64,000 bases of DNA from Nitrospira sp. (GTDB taxonomy: Bacteria > Nitrospirota > Nitrospiria > Nitrospirales > Nitrospiraceae), in contig VGXF01000002.1 in NCBI GenBank assembly GCA_016873435.1, positions 124,001 to 188,000 of the forward strand, read 5' to 3'. A model generated the notes under the pieces. The model had not been told where the DNA came from, did no database searches, and worked only from the letters and a program-made list of their open reading frames with translations. Positions 7,751 through 60,674 of this stretch are shown in pieces. Within the stretch, counting starts at the first letter, position 1. Each line of letters begins with the position of its first letter. Position numbers and translations under genes: made by a program.

Positions 7751-8779
7751 CTACCGTGACAAGACGCGGGCAAAAATTCCTCCAGCTTTCTCGATGTCGT
7801 CTGCGGATAGATCGAGGTGCGTGACAGCGCGATAGGTGCGGCCGCCCACCGCATTGACCGCGATACCTTCGGCTTTCAGCGCGGCGACGAGTTCCGCGGG
7901 TGTGTGGCTGGTGGCCACGTCGAAGAACACTATGTTCGTTTGGACGGTTTTGACGTCAATCGTGACGGTCGGAATCTGCGCGAGCAGCGTCGCCAGCCGC
8001 TTTGCGTTGTCGTGGTCATCCTTGAGTCGACTGATATTGTGCTCCAGCGCATAGAGGCCGGCAGCGGCCAGGATGCCGGCCTGCCGCATGCTGCCGCCAT
8101 ACATTCGGCGGAAGCGGCGCAGCCGGTCGATCATGTCGCGATCGTTCGTGGCCAGCAGTGAGCCCGCCGGCGCGCCCAGGCCCTTCGACAGGCAGAACGA
8201 AACGGTCGTGCAATGCTTGGCATATTCCGTGGTCGACGTGCCCGTGGCCACGACGGCGTTAAAGAGCCGCGCCCCGTCCATGTGTAGGGGGAGGCCGCGC
8301 TGCCGAGCGATAGCGCCAATGCGCTCGACGGTCACGAGCGGGTAGACCGCGCCGCCGCCGCTGTTGTGAGTGTTTTCGAGACAGATGAGCGCTGTCTGGA
8401 TCGTGTGGGCGTCTTTGGGGCGGATCGCTGCCTCGACCTGCTCGGGGGCCAGGATGCCTCGCGTCCCCGCCACCCAGTGGAACTGCACGCCGGCCAGCGC
8501 GCCGCCCGCGCCCTGCTCGTAGCGCACCATGTGGGCCTGGCTGTCGACGATCACTTCCTGGCCGGGCTGGGTCTGCGCCCGCAGGGCGAGCTGGTTGGCC
8601 ATCGTGCCTGAGGGCACGAACAGCGCAACCGCCTTGCCAACGAGGGCCGCACCCACTTCCTGTAAGCGGTTGACCGTCGGGTCCTCCCCGTAGACGTCGT
8701 CGCCCACCTCGGCTATGGCCATAGCCTGCCGCATAGCTTGCGAGGGCTTTGTGACGGTATCGCTGCGCAGATCGATCAT
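7751..8779 (-). CDS. ltaE: Low-specificity L-threonine aldolase
   Basis: 342 residues, full length. A PLP enzyme of fold type I that splits threonine and allo-threonine to glycine and acetaldehyde. It starts [13 protein letters not shown], followed by [12 protein letters not shown], both strong family signatures; [10 protein letters not shown] holds the Asp that contacts the PLP ring, and [11 protein letters not shown] carries the Schiff-base Lys. It lies 23 bases downstream of an unknown 415-residue gene, and 27 bases before the 74-residue gene. Confidence 0.95.
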
Positions 8780-8801: not shown

Positions 8802-10049
8802 TCAGGGGTTATCCATGGCGGTCCGGCTCTCGAACTTGACGCACTGCCGATTCAGGACCGGATAGATCGTGAAGATCGGGGTATTGAACGGGATGAACGC
8901 GGTGTCCGTCGCCGGCAGGAGCTGCAGGTGTAGGTTCACGTAATTGTAGCTGAGCCCCTCCTGCCAGGGCTTGCTGAAGTTCTCCACGTAGGCCTGCGTT
9001 TTGTCCGAGGCGTAGGTCCTGGTCATCAGGCCCGCGCCGCCCTGCAGCCCGTACTCATTCAAGTCCGGCGCCCCCTGGATCAGGACCGACACCGCAGCGG
9101 CATCAAACCAGACCTTAAACTTGCAGCTGACTTGCAGGTAGGTGCCCAGGGAGCCCGTATGCTCTAGGAAGCCCAGGGGCAGAGCGATCTCGGGCGGCGG
9201 GTCGTCCGGTCCCGCGGCCAGCGGGAGCCGGAGCTCCCGTTCTTTCACAGGTGAAAAAGAGATGAATCGTAAGTGGGGATCGTCCAGTGCGATGTCCTGG
9301 GCCGTCCCGTCGTGGTAGCTGCACAGCTTCCCCATCTCGTACCGGAGGGGAAAGGAGTAGCCCGGTTTTGCGTAGAAGATGCGCACGCCTGCGTCCAGTG
9401 GATCGTCCGGCTTCCGGCTGATCTTGAGATCAAAGGGCAGCATCATGTGAAAGGCGTTCGTGCGCGCGGCCATGAACGGTGCGCAGGCGCCCTCGAACTC
9501 CTTGTGCAAGGTCGAATTGTCTGGCTCGAAGTTTTTCGGGATCGCGCCGAAGTGCTGCGCCAGCTTGGCCTCCTTGGGGATCCTGAACTTGTTCTGGTAG
9601 TACTCGCCGGCCCGCCGTTGCGCGATGCTGAGAAAGTAGTCGGGGAGGTCTGTTTCCACGATGATCCGCTGCTTGTCCAGCGCGACCGTTCGCGGCACCT
9701 TGATGGCCTCGTTGTACAAAACCAGCTCCGCCGAGGTCTTCCGGATGTCCTGCGCTAGGAGTTGGGCGATCTCCGGATGCGTGAGGAGGGGGGGGGTGTT
9801 GGACAGTAGTGTTTGCGCCTTCTGCAGGCACTCGAGTTTCTGTGTGTAGCGCTTTGGCTCTGCCGCGAAGGCGCCTGCGATGGCCATGTAGAGGTTGAAC
9901 TGCTCCTCCGGCAGCAGGCCCAGCTTGTCCAGGTCCTCTTCCTTGCTGAAGGCAAGGGCCAGCGGGCCGAAGGCCTCTTCCTTCCGGATACAAAGGGTGA
10001 GGAGGTAGTTGTAGTGGGTTCGGGCTTCCTGCGGTGTCATCCGGCGCAT
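8802..10049 (-). CDS. Unrecognised 415-residue protein
   Basis: A long frame with normal codon use and no family I recognise. The first 130 residues are helical with repeated hairpin-like segments ([17 protein letters not shown], then [15 protein letters not shown]), possibly TPR-like. Residues from about 200 to the end look beta-rich ([15 protein letters not shown], then [14 protein letters not shown]), with several conserved-looking aromatic residues. No signal peptide or transmembrane segment. It is the first gene of the minus-strand run toward ltaE and stands divergent to the proA-like gene, sharing the 10050-10239 promoter region. Function unknown. Confidence 0.75.
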
Positions 10050-10100
10050 TCTAAGGGAAGTCCGTGCAAATGAACAAGCCGCTCATGGGCAATGGGCTTT

Positions 10101-10130
10101 TGACTCGCTTAGGAAACGGGTGCTATAGTC
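10101..10130 (+). promoter_or_regulatory. Sigma-70-type promoter for the proA-like gene
   Basis: TTGACT and TATAGT separated by 18 bases, about 110 bases upstream of the ATG at 10240. An octamer repeat lies between this promoter and the start codon. Confidence 0.65.
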
Positions 10131-10239: not shown

Positions 10240-11613
10240 ATGGTTGAAGTACCGGTTAAGATATATATACACAACATTGCGAAAAAGGCGAGGGAAGCTG
10301 TCAGGCCAATGGCCCTGCTGACGGCCCCAGTCAAAGACAAGGCGCTACGGGCCATGGCCGACAAACTGGCCGCCGCCGAGGAAGCCATCCTCGACGCTAA
10401 TCGGGAAGACACGGAAACAGTCGGCAAGGCACTCCAGGCCGGCGATATGCGTAAGGATCTGGTGCGTGAAGCGGTGGACCGGCTGCGGCTGTCCTCCGAT
10501 TCGATCAAGGAGATGGTTGAGGGGTTGCGCCGCGTGGCGGACCTGCCCGATCCGGTCGGTGAAGTCACCCGCATGTGGCAGCGGCCAAACGGGATGGAAG
10601 TCAGCCGGGTGCGGGTGCCGATCGGCGTGATCGGCATCGTATCTGAGTTAGACCCCAAGGTCATGGTCGAAGCCTTCGCCTTGTGCCTCAAATCCGGTAA
10701 CGTGTGCATGTTCCGCAGCGCACCCGAATGGATCCGCACGAACATGGCGATTGTGCATGCCCTGCGCGATGCGGCAGAGGGCGCCGGCGTCCCGGCGGGC
10801 GCGCTGACCTTTGTTGAGCGGACGGAAAAGGAAGGGGCGCTGGAGCTGATGCGGCTGCACACGCTGCTCGATGCCTTCATTCCGCGCGGCGGCCCTGGTC
10901 TGCGCAAGACGGCACTCGACCAGGTACGCGTGCCGGTGCTCTGCCACGAAGGCGGTGTCAGCACCGTCTACGTGGATGTGGACGTGGATCTGCCGCTCGC
11001 GCAGAATCTGGTGATCAACGCCAAGTTGCAGCAGCCCTTGGCCTCGAACTCCGTGGATACGCTACTCGTGCAGCAAACAACCGCGCGGCCGCTGCTCCCC
11101 GCATTGATTCGACGCCTGATCGAAGAATTCAAAGTGGACATCCACGGCTGTCCCAAGACCGTTGCCCTGATCGGCTCGCAGGCTATGACTGGCCACAAGT
11201 CGGTGGAGCCGGTGACGGAGGAGCATTGGAGCAAACAGTTCCAGGCCAAGGCGCTGGCAGTGAAGATGGTGGCAGACGTGGACGAGGCACTCGCACATAT
11301 TGCGCGCTACGGGCCCGCCCATACATGCAGCATCGCCACACGCGACTACGCAACGGCCATGCGCTTCGCGCGCGAGGTGGATGCGGCGGCGGTACTGATC
11401 AATGCCTCCACGCGCCACCACGACGGGGAGGAGTTTGGCTTTGGCGGGCAGATGGGCATCGCCACGGGGCGCGTCCATGCGCGCGGCCCTATCGGCCTCA
11501 ACGAGCTCACCTGCGAAAAGTACGTCGTCCTCGGCACGGGCCAGTTGCGCCAGCCGCATCCGGTACCGGACACCTACGAAGACGCGATCATGCTCCGGAA
11601 GGGCTTAGCGTAA
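10240..11613 (+). CDS. proA: Glutamate-5-semialdehyde dehydrogenase (ProA) family protein, catalytic Cys replaced
   Basis: 457 residues from the ATG at 10240, chosen because CCGGAG lies upstream and the N-terminus then fits the family. ProA reduces gamma-glutamyl phosphate to glutamate semialdehyde in proline synthesis. The family is clear: VPIGVIGIVSELDP, FIPRGGPGL, GFGGQMGIATGRVHARGP at the expected places. However, the motif that reads NAK-x-QRP-x-x-CN in known enzymes is NAKLQQPLASN here, so the catalytic Cys is Ser269. A Cys occurs instead in VPVLCHEGG, about 30 residues upstream. proB is not adjacent. The protein may be a paralogue with another role; the symbol marks family, not proven activity. 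Confidence 0.8.
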   Translation: MVEVPVKIYIHNIAKKAREAVRPMALLTAPVKDKALRAMADKLAAAEEAILDANREDTETVGKALQAGDMRKDLVREAVDRLRLSSDSIKEMVEGLRRVADLPDPVGEVTRMWQRPNGMEVSRVRVPIGVIGIVSELDPKVMVEAFALCLKSGNVCMFRSAPEWIRTNMAIVHALRDAAEGAGVPAGALTFVERTEKEGALELMRLHTLLDAFIPRGGPGLRKTALDQVRVPVLCHEGGVSTVYVDVDVDLPLAQNLVINAKLQQPLASNSVDTLLVQQTTARPLLPALIRRLIEEFKVDIHGCPKTVALIGSQAMTGHKSVEPVTEEHWSKQFQAKALAVKMVADVDEALAHIARYGPAHTCSIATRDYATAMRFAREVDAAAVLINASTRHHDGEEFGFGGQMGIATGRVHARGPIGLNELTCEKYVVLGTGQLRQPHPVPDTYEDAIMLRKGLA

Positions 11614-11720: not shown

Positions 11721-12920
11721 TTGCCCGCCACGAAGGTCAATCCCGCCATTCACAGTCATTTGAAAGAGTGGGGCTTGCGCTGGTTTGAGACCGACGCGGA
11801 TTACGACCGCTGGCAGCGCGAGACGCTGAAACAGGACGAACTCACGACACTACTTCGTCTCTCTGGGCAGCGGGGCGGCGGCGCCGATCCTGCCGCTGAG
11901 ACCGCGTTCTACGATTACGCTTCGCAACCGCACATCCTGCCGGTTCTCTACAGTCAGCGCTACGACTATTATGCGACCATCGGCACCGCCGTAGCCGAAC
12001 GGATTGGGGAGGCCCGCTCCGCACTGGATGCTGCCTGTGGGATCGGCGTACTAACGGCGTGGTATGCCCGGCAGTTCCCCAATTGTGTGTTCACCGGCGT
12101 AGATCGGTCGCCGGTTTCCATTGCAGTTGCGATGGAAAAAACGAAAGCGCTCGGTCTCTCCAATATTCGGTTCGAATGTCTGGATATGGACCAGATGATA
12201 CCGCCCGGACCTTTTGATCTGGTAATTTCCACGCAGGCGCTTTTGCAGAACGAGCAGGACCCCGGTGTGCCGAGCGCAAGCTGGCGGATCTTCGAGCGGT
12301 CCACGGATGCAGGGGTACAAGCCGACATCGAGCGGCGCACCGGCCTCGGCAATCGGTTGGACCGTCTCGCGGCGGCGCTCGCGGAGGGCGGCCGCCTGAT
12401 CGCCTGCGAGAAAACGCGGCATCTGGCCCGGCGTGTGCCATTTCAGCGGGCGCTGGCCGCGAGAGGGTTCATGATGCAGGAGACGCCACTGTCGATTCAG
12501 TACGCGGTGATCGAAGAAGTCACGGACGACGGTCCGCTTTATGTGCTGGGCCGTGGTGCATCGACTGTCGCTTGGGACGAGTCACCGGAGTTCGACGACC
12601 AGCCGCCATTTGATCCGGCTGCACTCAAAGGCCAGACGGCGCGGGATGATGAGCCGCTCTATGAAAATCACACGGCCTCAGCACAGCAGGCCTGGGAACG
12701 TTTGTCGAATCGCCGTATCCTCAAGGAGCAGACAGGCGCGCAGGCTGGGGGGCGGCAGATGCACGTGGAATTAGGTGAGTCGAATGACCTGAACTATCTC
12801 TATTGTGCCAATACCTTCGATCAGCGCCAACTCGTCATTGTGGACCGTTCGCGGCAGCCCATGCTCGCGCAGTATTACGATGAAGTCGTACAGAGTATGG
12901 ACGCCGCTCCGCACACTTGA
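11721..12920 (+). CDS. SAM-dependent methyltransferase with a C-terminal extension
   Basis: 399 residues from a TTG start. Residues about 95-180 form a class I (Rossmann) methyltransferase core: ALDAACGIGVLTAWYA is motif I, VFTGVDRS carries the acidic residue of motif II, and GPFDLVISTQALL is motif IV. From about residue 275 onward there is an extra region with an acidic linker and a compact end (LNYLYCANTFDQRQLVIVD) not expected of a plain methyltransferase. Substrate unknown. It stands first in the 11.7-20.9 kb locus of radical SAM and redox genes, but a separate promoter precedes the radical SAM pair. Confidence 0.78.
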   Translation: MPATKVNPAIHSHLKEWGLRWFETDADYDRWQRETLKQDELTTLLRLSGQRGGGADPAAETAFYDYASQPHILPVLYSQRYDYYATIGTAVAERIGEARSALDAACGIGVLTAWYARQFPNCVFTGVDRSPVSIAVAMEKTKALGLSNIRFECLDMDQMIPPGPFDLVISTQALLQNEQDPGVPSASWRIFERSTDAGVQADIERRTGLGNRLDRLAAALAEGGRLIACEKTRHLARRVPFQRALAARGFMMQETPLSIQYAVIEEVTDDGPLYVLGRGASTVAWDESPEFDDQPPFDPAALKGQTARDDEPLYENHTASAQQAWERLSNRRILKEQTGAQAGGRQMHVELGESNDLNYLYCANTFDQRQLVIVDRSRQPMLAQYYDEVVQSMDAAPHT

Positions 12921-13170: not shown

Positions 13171-15069
13171 ATGCGCATCGAGTATTCTAAAGGCGAAAAA
13201 GCCAGTCTCGAGCTGATTCAGCTTCATCGTAAAACATCGGACGCCCAGAGTGGGCGAAAGATGAAGGTCCTGCTGATCTTCCCGCCCGACTGGTATCCCT
13301 CCGAGCCCTATCTGAGTCTGCCATCCCTCACTGCGGTCCTGCGCCAGGCTGGCCACACAGTCGTGCAAAAAGACATCAATCTGGAGATGTGGGACTGGTA
13401 CTTCAGCGAGGATTTTCTGAAGCGGGTCCTCAAGAAAGTCCCACAGCAATTGGACCGCCTACGCAAGCTGGCGAAGAAGCGCGATCTGGAGCCGGCCGAG
13501 GCGGAGTTGCAGCTGGCGCTCTGCGAAATCACCCGCCAGCGGATCGATGAACTGGCGAAGAAGGCCGAGGAAGCTAAGCGCATCGTCCGGGGGCAGGAGT
13601 TTTACGACATCGACCGGCTCGAGTGGGCGATGCATGTATTCCGTGAGGTCACGTCGGTGATCTCGATGGTCTACGCGCCCGCGCGCATTTGCCTGCCGCC
13701 GATGGAGACGAACCTGTCGTACAAGGTCTATGTCTCCGCCGAGATTATGGAGGCGGTGCAGGACGAACAGGTCAATATCTACCGCGACGTATTCAACCAT
13801 CTCGTGAGGCCGGTGATCGAAGCGGAGAAGCCGGACGTCATTGGCATCTCGGTCGTCCTTCAGCAGCAACTCTTTTCCACAATGACTTTCTGTGCCCTCA
13901 TCAAGGAACAGTTTCCACACATTCATGTCACGATTGGAGGCAATACGGTCACGCGCCTGCGCGACGCACTGCCCCAGTCGCCGCTGTTCCAGTATTTCGA
14001 CAGCGCTGTGGTCTATGAAGGGGAAACGGCTTTTGTGCAACTGGTGTCGGCTGTAGGGGCCAGGCGCAGCCTCGCCGAGGTTCCCAATGCTATTTATAAG
14101 GACACGTTCGGCGTGCATGAATCCGCCATGAGCTACGCGGAGGACATGCACGCGCTGCCACCGCCGGATTTCGACGGCCTGCCGCTGGAGAAGTATTTCG
14201 TGCCGGTCCGGACGCTCCCGTATCTCGCCACGCGCGGCTGCTACTGGGGCCGCTGCGAGTTCTGCGACCACGGCGAGGGTTACACGGCGGGCTACCGGTC
14301 GAAGAAGATTCAGGACGTGCTAAGCGAAATCAAGCACCTGCGTGACAAGTACGGGTGCCGTCATTTTCACTTCACCGATGAGTCCTATCCGCCGGCACTG
14401 TTTCGCAAGCTGGGGCGCGGCTTAGTTGAAAGCAAGATGAACATCTACTGGACGACGCACATGCGCTTTGAGAAGAGTCTGCTGGAGGATCAGGTCTGGC
14501 AGGATGCGAAGGAGTCAGGCTGCCGCTATCTCCACTTTGGCTACGAGTCGGGCGTCGAGCGGGTGCTTCACCTAATGGACAAGGCGACGACGACCGAGGT
14601 GATGACAAAGCACCTTAAGTACACGGCTGACGCGGGTATCTGGAACCACTGCATGGGCTTCTTCGGATTTCCCGGCGAGACGAAGGAAGAGGCGTGGCAG
14701 TCAGTACAATTCCTTGAGCAGAACAAGAACCATGTGCATTCACTGGGGTTCGGCACCTTCGATCTGGGCCGGCACAATCCAGTGGCGAAGCATCCGGAGA
14801 AATGGGGTGTGACGGCTTACAAGAATCCGCAGTGGGATCTTGCGCTTGATTATTACTACACAGTCAGGAACGGTATGAGCATCGAAGAAGCTGAGCGCGT
14901 GTTCGAACAATTCGAGCAGAATCATCATGCTGGCTGGGACTTGCGACTGTATATTCGGGAGTACATTTTTCTCTACATCTGCAAGTTTGGACTCGCCAAA
15001 CTCCCGGATCTGCAATACAACGCGACGAAAATTGCAGGACCTACGCCGACGCTTGCAGGGAAGATGTAA
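13171..15069 (+). CDS. Cobalamin-binding-type radical SAM protein, copy 1
   Basis: 632 residues. An N-terminal B12-binding-like Rossmann region starts KVLLIFPPDW near residue 31, with PYLSLPSLTAVLRQAGH; the DxHxxG cobalamin motif is not kept (the equivalent stretch reads DINLEM). A helical insertion of about 130 residues follows, then VIGISVVLQQQL and VTIGGN from the second half of the B12 fold. The radical SAM cluster motif is CX4CX2C (Cys357, Cys362, Cys365, in ATRGCYWGRCEFCDHG). HFTDESYPP and FFGFPGETKEEA are further radical SAM core features. Substrate unknown. The gene ends 11 bases before its paralogue. A start at 13261 is possible. Confidence 0.85.
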   Translation: MRIEYSKGEKASLELIQLHRKTSDAQSGRKMKVLLIFPPDWYPSEPYLSLPSLTAVLRQAGHTVVQKDINLEMWDWYFSEDFLKRVLKKVPQQLDRLRKLAKKRDLEPAEAELQLALCEITRQRIDELAKKAEEAKRIVRGQEFYDIDRLEWAMHVFREVTSVISMVYAPARICLPPMETNLSYKVYVSAEIMEAVQDEQVNIYRDVFNHLVRPVIEAEKPDVIGISVVLQQQLFSTMTFCALIKEQFPHIHVTIGGNTVTRLRDALPQSPLFQYFDSAVVYEGETAFVQLVSAVGARRSLAEVPNAIYKDTFGVHESAMSYAEDMHALPPPDFDGLPLEKYFVPVRTLPYLATRGCYWGRCEFCDHGEGYTAGYRSKKIQDVLSEIKHLRDKYGCRHFHFTDESYPPALFRKLGRGLVESKMNIYWTTHMRFEKSLLEDQVWQDAKESGCRYLHFGYESGVERVLHLMDKATTTEVMTKHLKYTADAGIWNHCMGFFGFPGETKEEAWQSVQFLEQNKNHVHSLGFGTFDLGRHNPVAKHPEKWGVTAYKNPQWDLALDYYYTVRNGMSIEEAERVFEQFEQNHHAGWDLRLYIREYIFLYICKFGLAKLPDLQYNATKIAGPTPTLAGKM

Positions 15070-15080
15070 CAACCGGCGCG

Positions 15081-17024
15081 ATGAGTCCCTTGCTTACCAT
15101 AGACAGCCGTCCGCAGCCGGCCACGCCAGGTAGGAAGAAATCCAAGGTCATGTTGCTGTTTCCGCCTGAATGGGTCCCGACGGCTCCGTACCTCGCGCTG
15201 CCGAGCCTCACGGCCGTCTTGCGCCAGCACGAGCACGAGGTCGTGCAGCGGGACATCAACATCGAAATGTACGATCTGTTCTTCAGCGATTCGTTTTTGA
15301 TTTGGGTCAAGACACGCATTGCCGGACATCGCCATGCGCTAGAACTCAAAGAGCGCACCGGCCCACTGAGCGAGCAGGAGCTAGGGCATAAGACCTGCCT
15401 CGAGGCCAAAGCCGACGTGGACGTGTTCGACCTGATCGAGCGCGCCGACAAGGCCAAGCGCATCACGCGTGGCGAAGCGTTCTATGATGCGGCGCAGCTC
15501 GACTGGGCGCTGAACGTTTTTCGCGAAGCCATGCAATACATCTCTGCCGCTTATTATCCGGCGTCGCTCGTGTTCTATCCGATGGAAAGCAACCTCGGCT
15601 ACCGACCGGGTGTCTCGACAGAGATCTTTGCCTGCCTTGACGATGAGCAGGTGAATGTCTACCGCGATGTCTGCCGTCAGCTCGTGCTGCCATCGGTCAG
15701 CCGCGAGAAGCCGGCTGTGGTCGGCGTCTCCATTGGCACGCAGATGCAACTCATGGCCGGCCTGACTTTCTGTAAAATGATCAAGGAAGCTTTCCCGGAG
15801 ATCCATGTCGTGGTCGGCGGCAACGTCATCACGCGGCTCCAGGAAGAACTGCCTAAACACGAACGGTTTTTTACCACGATCTTCGACTCGGCCATCATGT
15901 ACGAAGGGGAGCATGCGCTGCTGTGGTTGCTGGAGGCCCTAAATGGCGAGCGAGAGCGATCCTCCGTGCCCAATTTGATCTATCGCGATACGTCTGGAAT
16001 CCACGTCAACAAGGAAATCCACACGGAGAAGATGGCCACGCTCCCGTTGCCGGATTTCGAGGGGTTTCCGCTCGACAGCTATTTCGTGCCGGTCCGCATT
16101 CTGCCGTATCTGGCCACGCGCGGCTGCTACTGGGGCCGCTGCACCTTCTGTGACCATGGGCAGGGCTATTTTGACCAATATCGCGGTCTGCAATCGGCCC
16201 AGGTGGTGGATCAGGTTAAGGCGCTGCGGGACAAGTACAACTGCCGACATTTTCTGTTTGCTGACGAATCTTATCCCCCCGCGCTCTTCAAGAAAGTCAC
16301 GCAGGCGCTTGTGGATCAGAACGTTGGCATCAAGTGGACGACGCTGATCCGTTTTGAAGAAGCGCTCGAGACGCAGGATCTGGAGCTGGCCGCTAAGGCC
16401 GGGTGCTGTACGCTCTACTATGGCATGGAGTCCGCCAACGAACGCGTGTTGGAGCTGATGGACAAACACGTAAAGCAGTCTATCATCGCACGCAATTTAC
16501 GCGATGCGGCGAAAGTCGGCATCTGGAATCACGTCATGGCCTTTTATGGATTCCCCGGGGAAACGCGGGATGAGGCGGAGGACACGCGGCGGTTTCTGCT
16601 CGAGCACAAGAAAGATATTCACTCGGTCGAGCTGTTCTATTTCGTGGCCTATCGCCATACGCCAATGGTACGGAACCCGGACAAATTTGGCATCACAATC
16701 CACAAGCAGGAGGAGTACGACCTGCCGCTGGATTACTACTATACGCTCAACGAGCCGGTCGGCATTTCCTGCCTTGATGCCATGCAGCTCTGCGAGGACT
16801 TCTACAAGAACGACTTCGAGCCTTGGGCCGTGCGGGTCAATGCCCGCGAGCATGTTTTTCTCTACATTTCCAAGTTCGGTACGAATGCTCTACCGCAGAT
16901 CTATGCCAAGACGAAGGATGGCGATGCGGTGTCGGGGCTCGTCACGTGGCCGGTGGCGCGCGGGGATGCGGAAACCGAGGGCGATCAGTCGGTAGCCCGC
17001 GTCGTCAGTCACTCGCAAACATAA
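15081..17024 (+). CDS. Cobalamin-binding-type radical SAM protein, copy 2
   Basis: 647 residues, clearly paralogous to the preceding protein along its whole length: KVMLLFPPEW, PSLTAVLRQHEHEVVQ, VVVGGNVITRLQEELP, then the 4Fe-4S motif (Cys349, Cys354, Cys357) in ATRGCYWGRCTFCDHG, FADESYPPALF and FYGFPGETRDEA. It also lacks the His of the cobalamin DxHxxG motif (DINIEM). The C-terminal 30 residues differ from copy 1 and look disordered. The pair may act on the same substrate in sequence or as a heterodimer; that is inference from tandem placement. Confidence 0.85.
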   Translation: MSPLLTIDSRPQPATPGRKKSKVMLLFPPEWVPTAPYLALPSLTAVLRQHEHEVVQRDINIEMYDLFFSDSFLIWVKTRIAGHRHALELKERTGPLSEQELGHKTCLEAKADVDVFDLIERADKAKRITRGEAFYDAAQLDWALNVFREAMQYISAAYYPASLVFYPMESNLGYRPGVSTEIFACLDDEQVNVYRDVCRQLVLPSVSREKPAVVGVSIGTQMQLMAGLTFCKMIKEAFPEIHVVVGGNVITRLQEELPKHERFFTTIFDSAIMYEGEHALLWLLEALNGERERSSVPNLIYRDTSGIHVNKEIHTEKMATLPLPDFEGFPLDSYFVPVRILPYLATRGCYWGRCTFCDHGQGYFDQYRGLQSAQVVDQVKALRDKYNCRHFLFADESYPPALFKKVTQALVDQNVGIKWTTLIRFEEALETQDLELAAKAGCCTLYYGMESANERVLELMDKHVKQSIIARNLRDAAKVGIWNHVMAFYGFPGETRDEAEDTRRFLLEHKKDIHSVELFYFVAYRHTPMVRNPDKFGITIHKQEEYDLPLDYYYTLNEPVGISCLDAMQLCEDFYKNDFEPWAVRVNAREHVFLYISKFGTNALPQIYAKTKDGDAVSGLVTWPVARGDAETEGDQSVARVVSHSQT

Positions 17025-17101
17025 AGTGGTCCCCGTGAAGCGATCGCACTCACAAACGCGCGCCCTGCACGCCTCACAAACGACGTGACACGACGAATCT
17101 G

Positions 17102-17359
17102 CTAGTGCTTCTGTGACGTCAGCCAAGCGCAGAGCACTTGATATGCCGACTCGATTGCCCGTGTCATCGCTTCACCCTTCGTATAGCTCTGCATGTATTG
17201 TTTTGGGTTGTTCGTGAGATTGGCATAGCGGTCTGGATGCCAAGTGTCGAGCAGCGCCGTCTTTCTGAGATCGAGTTCTGCGCGGGTCACCGAGCGGTCA
17301 CTTCCAAAGAGCTGCAAGGCTGTGTCGACCGCCTCATCTGTGATAGGCTGACCGGGCAT
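17102..17359 (-). CDS. J-domain-like miniprotein
   Basis: 85 residues if started at the ATG at 17359; longer starts (17425, 17455) would overlap the divergent radical SAM gene. It reads LRKTALLDTWHPDRYA, then a charged loop, then AIESAYQVLCAWL, which is the helix II - HPD - helix III pattern of a J-domain, the part of DnaJ that stimulates DnaK ATPase activity. No Gly/Phe, zinc-finger or substrate domain is attached. It lies antisense to its neighbours, between copy 2 and the third radical SAM gene. No good ribosome binding site is visible. A J-like fold is likely; a chaperone role is inference. Confidence 0.6.
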   Translation of the reverse strand: MPGQPITDEAVDTALQLFGSDRSVTRAELDLRKTALLDTWHPDRYANLTNNPKQYMQSYTKGEAMTRAIESAYQVLCAWLTSQKH

Positions 17360-17405
17360 AAGGCAGTCTGGCAAAAAGCCATTTGGACTGTCAATTGAGG
17401 GTCTC

Positions 17406-18644
17406 GTGAGCTCGACGCTTCCCATTCTCCAACCTGGAAAAGTGCTGGCCGGCAAGGATTACAAGGAGGTTCTGCGCCGTGAAATGGACGGCGGCAAGAT
17501 TCCCTTGAGTCTCGGCAAGAACTGTCCGGTCCAGTGCGCTTTCTGCTATGAACTCGATCACTCCTACCGGGAAACGCTCGATCCGCCCAAGACGACTGAC
17601 GAAGATTGGAAGTTTATCCTCGACTATATTAACAGCAAGCCCACTGACCCGATGCAGTACTGGTGTCTGGGTGGCAACGAGTACATGGAATGGACCGATC
17701 TCTTTCTCCATCCTAAGGCCATGGAGTGGGTGGAGGACTTTCTGAAGCATACAGACAAGAACATCCAGTTTTTCACAGTGGGTTTCGTGCACGTGCCAAA
17801 AATACACCAGCTTGTGGCGCAGTATCCGGGCCGAATCAACTTTGAGCTGTCGGTCATCACGCTGGGGCGCTACCGGGAAAAGCTGATGCCGCATGCGCCG
17901 TCGGTGAAACATCTGATGAAGGTGCTGGATGGCCCAGCTGTTTCCTCGGCCAATTTCTACGCTTTTGACGAGCATACGATGTCGGACGATGCGAGGGCCA
18001 TCTCGCGGGTGAATCACAAATGTGTGCTCTGGATGGGCTGCCTGACACCGGTGCGGGGTATTAAGGGCGATACTCTGGCGATTATGCGGCAGGGGCGCAC
18101 GTATCTCGCCACTGAGGCGCAGCGCATCTATGACGCCGGGCTCCCCAACTTTCAGACCATTCACACGGAAGCCTACGTGACAGCCTTCCTGAACCGCCGC
18201 CGCATTGTGAGCCTGTTCGACTCGCTGGAATTACAGAAGAAGGATGTCGTCGTCATGGCGGCGAGCGTCTTTAAGATTCTGAACATGTACAGGAAGAACC
18301 GGGCCAAATACCTCTTCGTTCCGAACACGATGCTCTCCGGCGATTCCGATTGTACCGTGCTGCTGACCTTCGACGACATTGCCCGGCGGCTGACGGGCGA
18401 GAAGGTCATTCACGTACCCAAGTGCATCATGCAGTCCGGCCGCGGGCATTATATGGACATCACCGGCGTTACGCTGGAGGATTTTATGAAGAGGACCCGT
18501 GTAACTGTAAAGGTCCTGCACAAGGTGAATACGGACTTTGCCAACCGACAGCTGTGGCGCAATGGCTCGCTGAAGCAGTATGTCGAAGATTACGTCAAAA
18601 ACCCCTTAACCCAATCTTATGAAGCTCTTCCCGTCCCAGCTTAA
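17406..18644 (+). CDS. Radical SAM protein, unrelated to the tandem pair
   Basis: 412 residues from a GTG start. The 4Fe-4S motif is a standard CX3CX2C (Cys40, Cys44, Cys47, in GKNCPVQCAFCYELD). Later features: YWCLGGNEYMEW (probably equivalent to the GGE step in the core), a strand-rich centre, and a C-terminal region with MLSGDSDCTVLLTFDDIA that is not part of the usual core and resembles accessory domains of unknown role. No B12 domain and no obvious SPASM Cys cluster. It is divergent from the J-domain-like gene by 46 bases. Substrate unknown; a peptide-like frame with three Cys follows it. Confidence 0.8.
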   Translation: MSSTLPILQPGKVLAGKDYKEVLRREMDGGKIPLSLGKNCPVQCAFCYELDHSYRETLDPPKTTDEDWKFILDYINSKPTDPMQYWCLGGNEYMEWTDLFLHPKAMEWVEDFLKHTDKNIQFFTVGFVHVPKIHQLVAQYPGRINFELSVITLGRYREKLMPHAPSVKHLMKVLDGPAVSSANFYAFDEHTMSDDARAISRVNHKCVLWMGCLTPVRGIKGDTLAIMRQGRTYLATEAQRIYDAGLPNFQTIHTEAYVTAFLNRRRIVSLFDSLELQKKDVVVMAASVFKILNMYRKNRAKYLFVPNTMLSGDSDCTVLLTFDDIARRLTGEKVIHVPKCIMQSGRGHYMDITGVTLEDFMKRTRVTVKVLHKVNTDFANRQLWRNGSLKQYVEDYVKNPLTQSYEALPVPA

Positions 18645-18686
18645 TCACTTGTGCGTTCGTTGACAGGGAATGGCTGCTGACCTACA

Positions 18687-18818
18687 GTGTACTCCACGCC
18701 TCGAGTTGGGAAGTTTAGGAAAGTCGTCCAGCAAGGCTCCAGCGCGCGCAAGAGCAGGGAGGTGCGTGCCGAGCTGCGCTTCTGCCACGTGCAGTGCTAC
18801 CTATGCGAGCGGCAGTAG
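18687..18818 (+). CDS. Possible 43-codon peptide gene with a CX3CX2C tail
   Basis: A GTG-started frame between the third radical SAM gene and the phzF-like gene. The first 31 residues are basic and Cys-free (including GKFRKVVQQGSSARKS); the end reads LRFCHVQCYLCERQ and stops, so three Cys in CX3CX2C spacing sit in the last 11 residues. No good ribosome binding site is seen (an AGGGAA lies about 17 bases upstream). It could be a modified-peptide precursor, a small metal-binding protein, the torn start of a lost radical SAM gene, or chance. Confidence 0.25.
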   Translation: MYSTPRVGKFRKVVQQGSSARKSREVRAELRFCHVQCYLCERQ

Positions 18819-18905
18819 TCTTTTGCCGTCAGTGAAGTAATCCGGTAGGAATTTGAACGAGTCAGTCCGCAGCCGGAGCGTTGTTCATCATCCGCGGAGT
18901 AACAG

Positions 18906-19838
18906 GTGTCTCCAGCCAGGCGCACGTTAAAATTCTACCAGGCGGACGTCTTCACGGATGAGCCGTTCGGCGGTAATCCAGTGGCTGTCCTGCCGGATGC
19001 ATCGGGCCTGACGGACGAGGAGTTGCAGAAGATTGCCCGGGAGATGAATCTTTCAGAAACGGTCTTTGTTCTACCCCCAAGCAATCCGAAAGCCGCCGCT
19101 AAGGTTCGCATCTTCACCCCGACGCAGGAAATTCCCTTTGCCGGCCATCCCATCCTCGGCACATTTTTCATCCTGGCCAGACTCAAGATGATCAGGCTGC
19201 AGGAGCCGATCGCGACGTTCCAGTACGAGTGTAACATTGGCGTATTTCCAATCGAACTACGCGTACACAAGGGGCAGATTCTTCGTGTCGTGATGACCCA
19301 GCCCAAGCCGGAGTTTCTGGAGACGATCGAAGCGGTGGATGCTTTGGCCGAAATCGCCGTGGCGCTCGGCTTGGAGAAGAAGGTGATTACCGGGACGAAA
19401 TTCCCGGTCGCGGTCGTGTCCACTGGTCTGCCGGTCATGATCGTGCCGGTACGGACATTGACAGCGGTTCGATCCATCGTGCCCAATCTCACGGTGATGA
19501 CCGAGCTCTGTGGGCGGCACGGGGCCAACGGCATCATGGTCTTCACAACAGTCACGGTCGACGAGTTTTCGACCGTCCACACACGTATGTTTGCGCCGCT
19601 GATCGGCATTCTGGAAGATCCGGCCACGGGGAGTGCAAGTGGCGCACTCGGCGCCTATCTGGTCCAGAACGGTGTCGTTGAGGTAGCGATCACGACGGAG
19701 ATCATCGCTGAGCAGGGCTACGAGATGGGCCGGCCGTCCCGCATCATTATCCAGGTTGAATCCGACGACGACGTGATTCAGGATGTGAAAGTGGGCGGGG
19801 AAGTGGTCCTGGTCATTGAGGGCACGATCACTTTATAG
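18906..19838 (+). CDS. PhzF family protein (isomerase/epimerase fold)
   Basis: 310 residues from a GTG start. Typical PhzF signatures: YQADVFTDEPFGGNPVAVLP at the start, MNLSETVFVLPP with the catalytic-type Glu, FAGHPILGTFF, and EDPATGSASGALGAYL in the second half. PhzF proteins are two-domain proteins of the diaminopimelate-epimerase fold; the named member isomerises a phenazine precursor, but most homologues have unknown substrates. There are no other phenazine genes here. Genes before and after leave the substrate open; an MDR oxidoreductase follows 47 bases later. Confidence 0.88.
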   Translation: MSPARRTLKFYQADVFTDEPFGGNPVAVLPDASGLTDEELQKIAREMNLSETVFVLPPSNPKAAAKVRIFTPTQEIPFAGHPILGTFFILARLKMIRLQEPIATFQYECNIGVFPIELRVHKGQILRVVMTQPKPEFLETIEAVDALAEIAVALGLEKKVITGTKFPVAVVSTGLPVMIVPVRTLTAVRSIVPNLTVMTELCGRHGANGIMVFTTVTVDEFSTVHTRMFAPLIGILEDPATGSASGALGAYLVQNGVVEVAITTEIIAEQGYEMGRPSRIIIQVESDDDVIQDVKVGGEVVLVIEGTITL

Positions 19839-36294: not shown

Positions 36295-36381
36295 GCCCGG
36301 ATGGCGGAACTGGCAGACGCGCCAGACTCAAAATCTGGTTCTCGCAAGAGAGTGGGAGTTCGATCCTCCCTCTGGGCACCA
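36295..36381 (+). tRNA. tRNA-Leu (anticodon CAA)
   Basis: Acceptor GCCCGGA pairs with TCTGGGC (one G-U). The anticodon stem-loop CCAGA-CTCAAAA-TCTGG gives CAA. A long variable arm and an encoded CCA are present. Confidence 0.96.
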
Positions 36382-60599: not shown

Positions 60600-60674
60600 T
60601 GGAGCGGGCGATGGGATTTGAACCCACGACAACTTGCTTGGGAAGCAAGGACTCTACCGCTGAGCTACGCCCGC
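60600..60674 (-). tRNA. tRNA-Gly (anticodon CCC)
   Basis: On the minus strand GCGGGCG pairs with CGCCCGC; the anticodon arm CTTGC-TTCCCAA-GCAAG gives CCC; T-arm GTGGGTTCAAATCCCAT; an encoded CCA end (bases 60602-60600). Confidence 0.95.

Follow-up and report, generated by a model that had tools for sequence, protein, structure and literature searches.

A ProA paralogue of Nitrospirales without the catalytic cysteine is maintained beside a SAM methyltransferase gene

A ProA-family gene in a Nitrospira genome encodes a protein whose catalytic cysteine has been replaced, and comparison at the level of sequence demonstrates this loss together with purifying selection, a predicted ProA fold and linkage to a downstream methyltransferase gene. 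On balance, we hold it somewhat probable that the product is a ProA-derived pseudoenzyme, made by a duplication in Nitrospirales, that works with the neighbouring methyltransferase. The window is the whole stretch of DNA analysed, 64,000 nucleotides of contig VGXF01000002.1, and it belongs to a genome of 1.72 Mb that is assembled in 33 contigs and 98.5% complete. The features of the ProA-like gene, in window positions, are as follows.

10100-10129, forward strand: promoter-like site before the paralogue, TTGACT-18-TATAGT (consensus match only)
10240-11613, forward strand: Cys-less ProA paralogue, 457 aa (open reading frame with ProA-family match)
10657-10659, forward strand: Lys140, opposite the invariant canonical Asn of SRPN (alignment of 59 and 72 copies)
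10942-10944, forward strand: Cys235 of VPVLCHEGG, not retained across the family as a substitute Cys (59 paralogues: C 37, G 20, S 2)
11044-11046, forward strand: Ser269 (TCG), aligned with the catalytic Cys of ProA
11236-11238, forward strand: Gln333, opposite the invariant canonical Glu (Q 44, K 15 of 59)
11554-11592, forward strand: C-terminal tail, residues 439-451, beyond the canonical ProA end, with residues invariant in the paralogue alignment

The coordinates and ProA-family match given in a preliminary description of this DNA were borne out, and Met1 is invariant in a 47-row alignment. The window protein exceeds both curated ProA family cut-offs, with 445.7 bits against NF001221 (cut-off 289) and 340.5 bits against TIGR00407 (cut-off 317.45). 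The motif NAKLQQPLASN aligned by phmmer without gaps to the solved ProA chains 1o20, 8zok and 4ghk with Ser269 falling on the Cys, so that codon and alignment agree with the earlier report of Ser in place of this residue. Residues were then counted in 59 distinct paralogues and 72 canonical Nitrospirota copies. At site 269 the paralogues carry Ser (26), Ala (13), Pro (12) or Thr (8), and the Cys required for the thioacyl intermediate occurs in 0/59 of them versus 72/72 canonical copies; even a pair with 92% identity (L030 and L149) differs here, with Ser in one and Pro in the other. Given this assortment, no replacement nucleophile is common at site 269, and an importance of Ser as such, which had been implied, is not supported.

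The rest of the family pattern had been described as intact, a claim that turned out to be wrong because further canonical-invariant residues are lost. Gln replaces the motif Arg that is invariant in 72/72 canonical Nitrospirota copies, and the canonical residue, invariant in all 72 at each site, is found in 0/59 paralogues at site 138 (Arg), 2/59 at site 140 (Asn) and 0/59 at site 333 (Glu). The combination of C269, N140 and E333 is present in every canonical copy versus none of the paralogues. The preliminary description had allowed that an alignment might bring the Cys of VPVLCHEGG to the catalytic position; instead Cys235 lies opposite Lys in 72/72 canonical copies, and it is Ser241 of the window protein that aligns with the Cys that canonical copies have in their '-CH-' text. 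With sites 235 and 269 both variable, neither Cys235 nor Ser269 is a family-wide nucleophile.

In Drosophila P5CS, C598 of this domain attacks the substrate and forms a thioacyl intermediate, according to an excerpt of PMC8963878, and an excerpt of PMC10650815 names Cys as the sole catalytic-triad residue of human ALDH18A1, making the Cys loss the telling one. An assignment of Asn140 as the ALDH oxyanion Asn was dropped because only Cys is counted in the human ALDH18A1 triad in that excerpt (PMC10650815); the whole claim for Asn140 is its invariance among the aligned canonical copies and its loss in the window protein. These alignments give good support to a loss of ProA chemistry, and the prediction that Cys loss abolishes the usual mechanism is very likely correct, with a canonical, Cys-bearing proA located elsewhere in the genome.

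This second proA, for which the preliminary description had proposed a search, lies at a contig edge, is 51% identical to the window gene and carries the motif NAKVQRPATCN. Its presence in the same genome indicates that the window gene is a paralogue and excludes it as the only ProA of the genome. The window gene has neither this proA nor proB in its vicinity; the sole proB above cut-off was found on another contig, in line with the earlier statement that proB is not adjacent, and there it follows what we take to be an Obg-like gene. Canonical copies from paralogue-bearing genomes retained Cys, Asn and Glu in 21/21 cases. At four loci (L002, L158, L171 and L172) the canonical proA adjoins a gene for a protein of about 500-600 aa starting with ...RPGxxxFPxNL..., and a Pfam search with the L171 copy of this neighbour returned no match.

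Presence was counted in 99 genomes, including that of the window. The long paralogue occurred in 50/60 genomes of the window family and 27/27 of the sister family; in two further families of the order, 0/12 genomes had it. The ten window-family genomes without it are 70-92% complete; in three (G003, G014 and G048) the partner gene is present and starts at most 1.2 kb from contig base 1, and the other seven gave generic methyltransferase matches or none. To look beyond the phylum, one genome per species in GTDB 220 was scanned with six short peptide patterns taken from the window protein, a scan that reaches close relatives only, and at least 80 loci were obtained; among the matches listed, seven were paralogue-like (L032-L038), all from Nitrospira, Nitrospirae or Nitrospiraceae. 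In a maximum-likelihood tree of 70 rows (30 paralogues, 36 canonical copies and 4 outgroup rows), a branch with 100/100 support separated all 30 paralogues from the other rows. A 100/97 branch grouped the outgroup with 14 canonical rows; on its other side the paralogues stand with the remaining 22, which include all canonical copies read in genomes of the window and sister families. Rooting on the four outgroup rows thus joins the paralogues to Nitrospirales ProA, a topology that fits a ProA duplication within the order, as seen from the window and sister families, the two whose canonical copies were identified among the rows.

The paralogue has evolved under constraint. For the 25 pairs with the lowest dS, out of 65, Nei-Gojobori dN/dS ranged from 0.027 to 0.122; between the window gene and L003 it was 0.168, as a ratio of two distances. 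The absence of residues essential for the reaction and retention by selection rather than decay (0.027-0.168) are two marks of a probable pseudoenzyme. In 19 genomes, paralogues were on average about 1.9 times as distant from one another as the canonical ProA copies.

Residues were both kept and gained. N154, R159 and K262 are found in 59/59 paralogues, and N388, S390 and R392 in 58/59, the remaining row having an unread X. Retention of R159, K262, N388, S390 and R392 makes ligand binding (NADPH or glutamyl) by the ProA-like part possible. Compared with canonical ProA the paralogue contains insertions, and S135, W164, R194, R222, Q255, D273, R283, E296 and W330 are new invariant or near-invariant residues, as are P439, H440, P441, P443, Y446, D448, A449 and M451 of the tail. 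In the monomer model, residues 434-457 have pLDDT below 50, which together with the tail's invariance suggests a docking segment; confidence is low for residues 391-420 as well (block means 52-63). The predicted fold is ProA-like (4ghk, Z 30.2, rmsd 17.4, 368 aligned; 1o20, Z 29.7, rmsd 17.6, 384 aligned) and belongs with the ProA/ALDH fold; the whole-length rmsd of 17-20 A for the listed ProA chains we attribute to domains that the monomer model misplaces. By descent and predicted fold the protein is a ProA, and by its defining catalytic residue it is not.

The gene next to the paralogue on the same strand encodes a class I SAM methyltransferase.

11721-12920, forward strand: class I SAM methyltransferase, 399 aa, partner gene
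12642-12893, forward strand: its conserved C-terminal domain, aa ~308-391 (alignment of relatives)

A methyltransferase gene follows the paralogue directly and on the same strand in 77/77 loci (59/59 distinct), with a gap of −14 to 282 bases by our choice of starts, and no promoter-like forward-strand site was found between the two window genes by consensus match. The preliminary description contained neither this constant neighbour nor the invariant tail nor the clade-wide conservation. The SAM-binding domain of the partner is recognized by PF13649 (8.5e-14) and by its model (mean pLDDT 93.3), the core of which (aa ~53-280) matches 4qdj with Z 18.2 and rmsd 2.4 over 183 aligned residues; D103, G107, G109 and D128 of the core are invariant. 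No NCBIfam equivalog scored above cut-off for this protein. In many longer relatives a second, similar-looking stretch precedes the C-terminal domain. Methyltransferases of about 480-505 aa, at L138, L141, L151, L127, L129 and the sister-family loci, appear to contain an additional C-terminal domain in degenerate form, which most window-family copies lack.

Among 395 phylum genomes, strong methyltransferase matches were obtained in 108/110 of the window family and 27/27 of the sister family, and the best match in the other 258 (E 9e-12) was at generic domain level. Within this sample the methyltransferase is therefore restricted to the same two families as the paralogue. One of the two window-family exceptions, G372, gave a paralogue-like match that is partial (537 bits, positions 2-354), and the other, G409, gave a canonical-like ProA match only. 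Flanks were compared at 28 loci that span 9 kb or more, and only the pair is common to both families. Sister-family loci are flanked by genes that we take to be rpsB, tsf, pyrH, frr and an alanine-racemase-like gene, and most window-family loci by a threonine-aldolase-like gene, as at window positions 7751-8779 (PF01212). When the genes of the 28 loci were clustered, 26/28 loci had their ProA-like gene in its main cluster, and 26/28 had their methyltransferase in its main cluster; the misses are ascribed to crude ORF choice because other locus comparisons do find the pair there.

Other genes around the pair are less constant. Divergent from the ProA-like gene, at 8802-10049 on the reverse strand, lies a gene for a 415-aa protein that has no Pfam or NCBIfam match; similar genes were seen only at L127 and L134 among 29 loci compared. 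Positions 13171-19838 encode a tandem pair of B12-binding radical SAM-like proteins of 632 and 647 aa, a protein of 412 aa that has a CxxxCxxC stretch but no Pfam family at cut-off, and a PhzF-like protein. All four recur behind the pair in L129, where their identity of 68-80% exceeds the 58% and 43% of the pair itself; this difference hints at lateral transfer of the cluster. Given that this cluster follows the pair in only 1/29 loci compared (L129), it is not a fixed part and was rejected as a component of the system. Two tRNA genes complete the feature list.

36295-36378, forward strand: tRNA gene
60603-60674, reverse strand: tRNA gene

How tightly the two proteins evolve together was assessed from distance matrices in 19 genomes. 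The partial r was 0.71 for paralogue versus canonical ProA and 0.20 for paralogue versus methyltransferase, a value reached in 83 of 2000 permutations, indicating that paralogue-methyltransferase co-evolution beyond the species tree is weak and that mirror-tree comparison lends the link weak support. A role in the proline branch fits this difference at least as well, as does a better clock of related proteins.

Several other explanations have to be weighed against a pseudoenzyme that works with the methyltransferase. The paralogue might be an active ALDH-fold enzyme with a new, Cys-independent chemistry whose product is then methylated by its neighbour in a two-step pathway. The invariance of pocket-region residues (R159, K262, N388, S390 and R392) speaks for such an enzyme, as does a constant neighbour whose core resembles small-molecule methyltransferases among others, but sites 138, 140 and 269, invariant in canonical copies, vary freely, and no new invariant candidate nucleophile appears at these sites or at 235; we rate this as rather unlikely. 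Proline synthesis could alternatively be regulated by a pseudoenzyme that forms mixed oligomers with canonical ProA or binds ProB or gamma-glutamyl phosphate, the methyltransferase being a mere neighbour. The shared fold and origin, the distances that track canonical ProA best (partial r 0.71) and the canonical ProA in the same genomes are all consistent with this regulator. Set against it are a methyltransferase that is the one neighbour common to both families, in 59/59 distinct loci, and a window genome with neither the other proA nor proB nearby, so we doubt that it is the correct account.

We consider it highly improbable that the protein is a ProA with Ser269 or Cys235 for its nucleophile. 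Ser is present in the window copy and in 26/59 paralogues, and Cys235 in 37/59, yet Ala or Pro stands at 269 in 25/59, which rules out Ser269 as the substitute, and Gly stands at 235 in 20/59, which rules out Cys235 for the family; a canonical ProA in the genome argues against both. The loss of catalytic residues is also what a decaying copy or a sequencing error would produce, but dN/dS of 0.03-0.17, full-length open frames in tens of genomes and the lack of Cys in every one of the 59 paralogues rule this out for practical purposes.

The putative pseudoenzyme can be compared with several known systems. It resembles ProA (ALDH18 type; TIGR00407, NF001221) in whole-length homology, predicted fold and Nitrospirales ProA origin, and differs by the absence of the catalytic Cys (59/59), Arg138, Asn140 and Glu333 and by its insertions, conserved tail and coupling to a methyltransferase. 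To our knowledge, the human ALDH-superfamily pseudoenzyme ALDH16A1 has no methyltransferase neighbour; it is an animal protein and not of the ALDH18 type. It shares the ALDH fold and was likewise kept after losing catalytic residues, and a protein partner, maspardin, is reported for it, all according to an excerpt of PMC10650815. The trypanosome AdoMetDC prozyme and dead DHS paralogue are also dead duplicates kept beside an active homologue, but their partner is that active paralogue, whereas here the linked gene encodes an unrelated methyltransferase (excerpts of PMC5201418 and PMC3663545). The partner's core domain (aa 53-280) is like that of the class I SAM methyltransferases ChlM (4qdj), NodS and UbiG, from which it differs by extra N-terminal helices and the conserved C-terminal domain.

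With the Cys lost, yet strong selection acting beside one methyltransferase gene, the paralogue is probably a non-ProA partner or regulator protein. For the ProA-derived pseudoenzyme that we favour, a proA gene would have been duplicated within Nitrospirales, one copy remaining the proline enzyme while the other lost the nucleophilic Cys and further canonical-invariant residues, gained new invariant residues and the conserved C-terminal tail, and then became fixed upstream of the SAM methyltransferase gene. The paralogue would no longer reduce gamma-glutamyl phosphate, and the two proteins may form a complex docked at least partly via the tail, in which the ProA-like part could bind, support, regulate, present something to, or be modified by the methyltransferase. 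More speculatively, the pair might be a two-protein, Nitrospirales-specific device in which the dead ProA senses a glutamate/proline-branch metabolite or NADPH in its old pocket and gates a dedicated methyltransferase via the tail, an idea that we offer as a tentative one.

A search of open-licence PMC papers found none that deals with a ProA lacking the Cys or with this Nitrospira gene. Because a protein whose nucleophile is missing all through a lineage including Nitrospira passes the glutamate-5-semialdehyde dehydrogenase cut-offs, automatic annotation by TIGR00407 or NF001221 would give two 'proA' in genomes that carry the paralogue. If it is truly a pseudoenzyme with a fixed methyltransferase partner, it would be an ALDH18-type one kept at the family level in nitrification-relevant bacteria, and it would point to an unstudied methylation step in these organisms.
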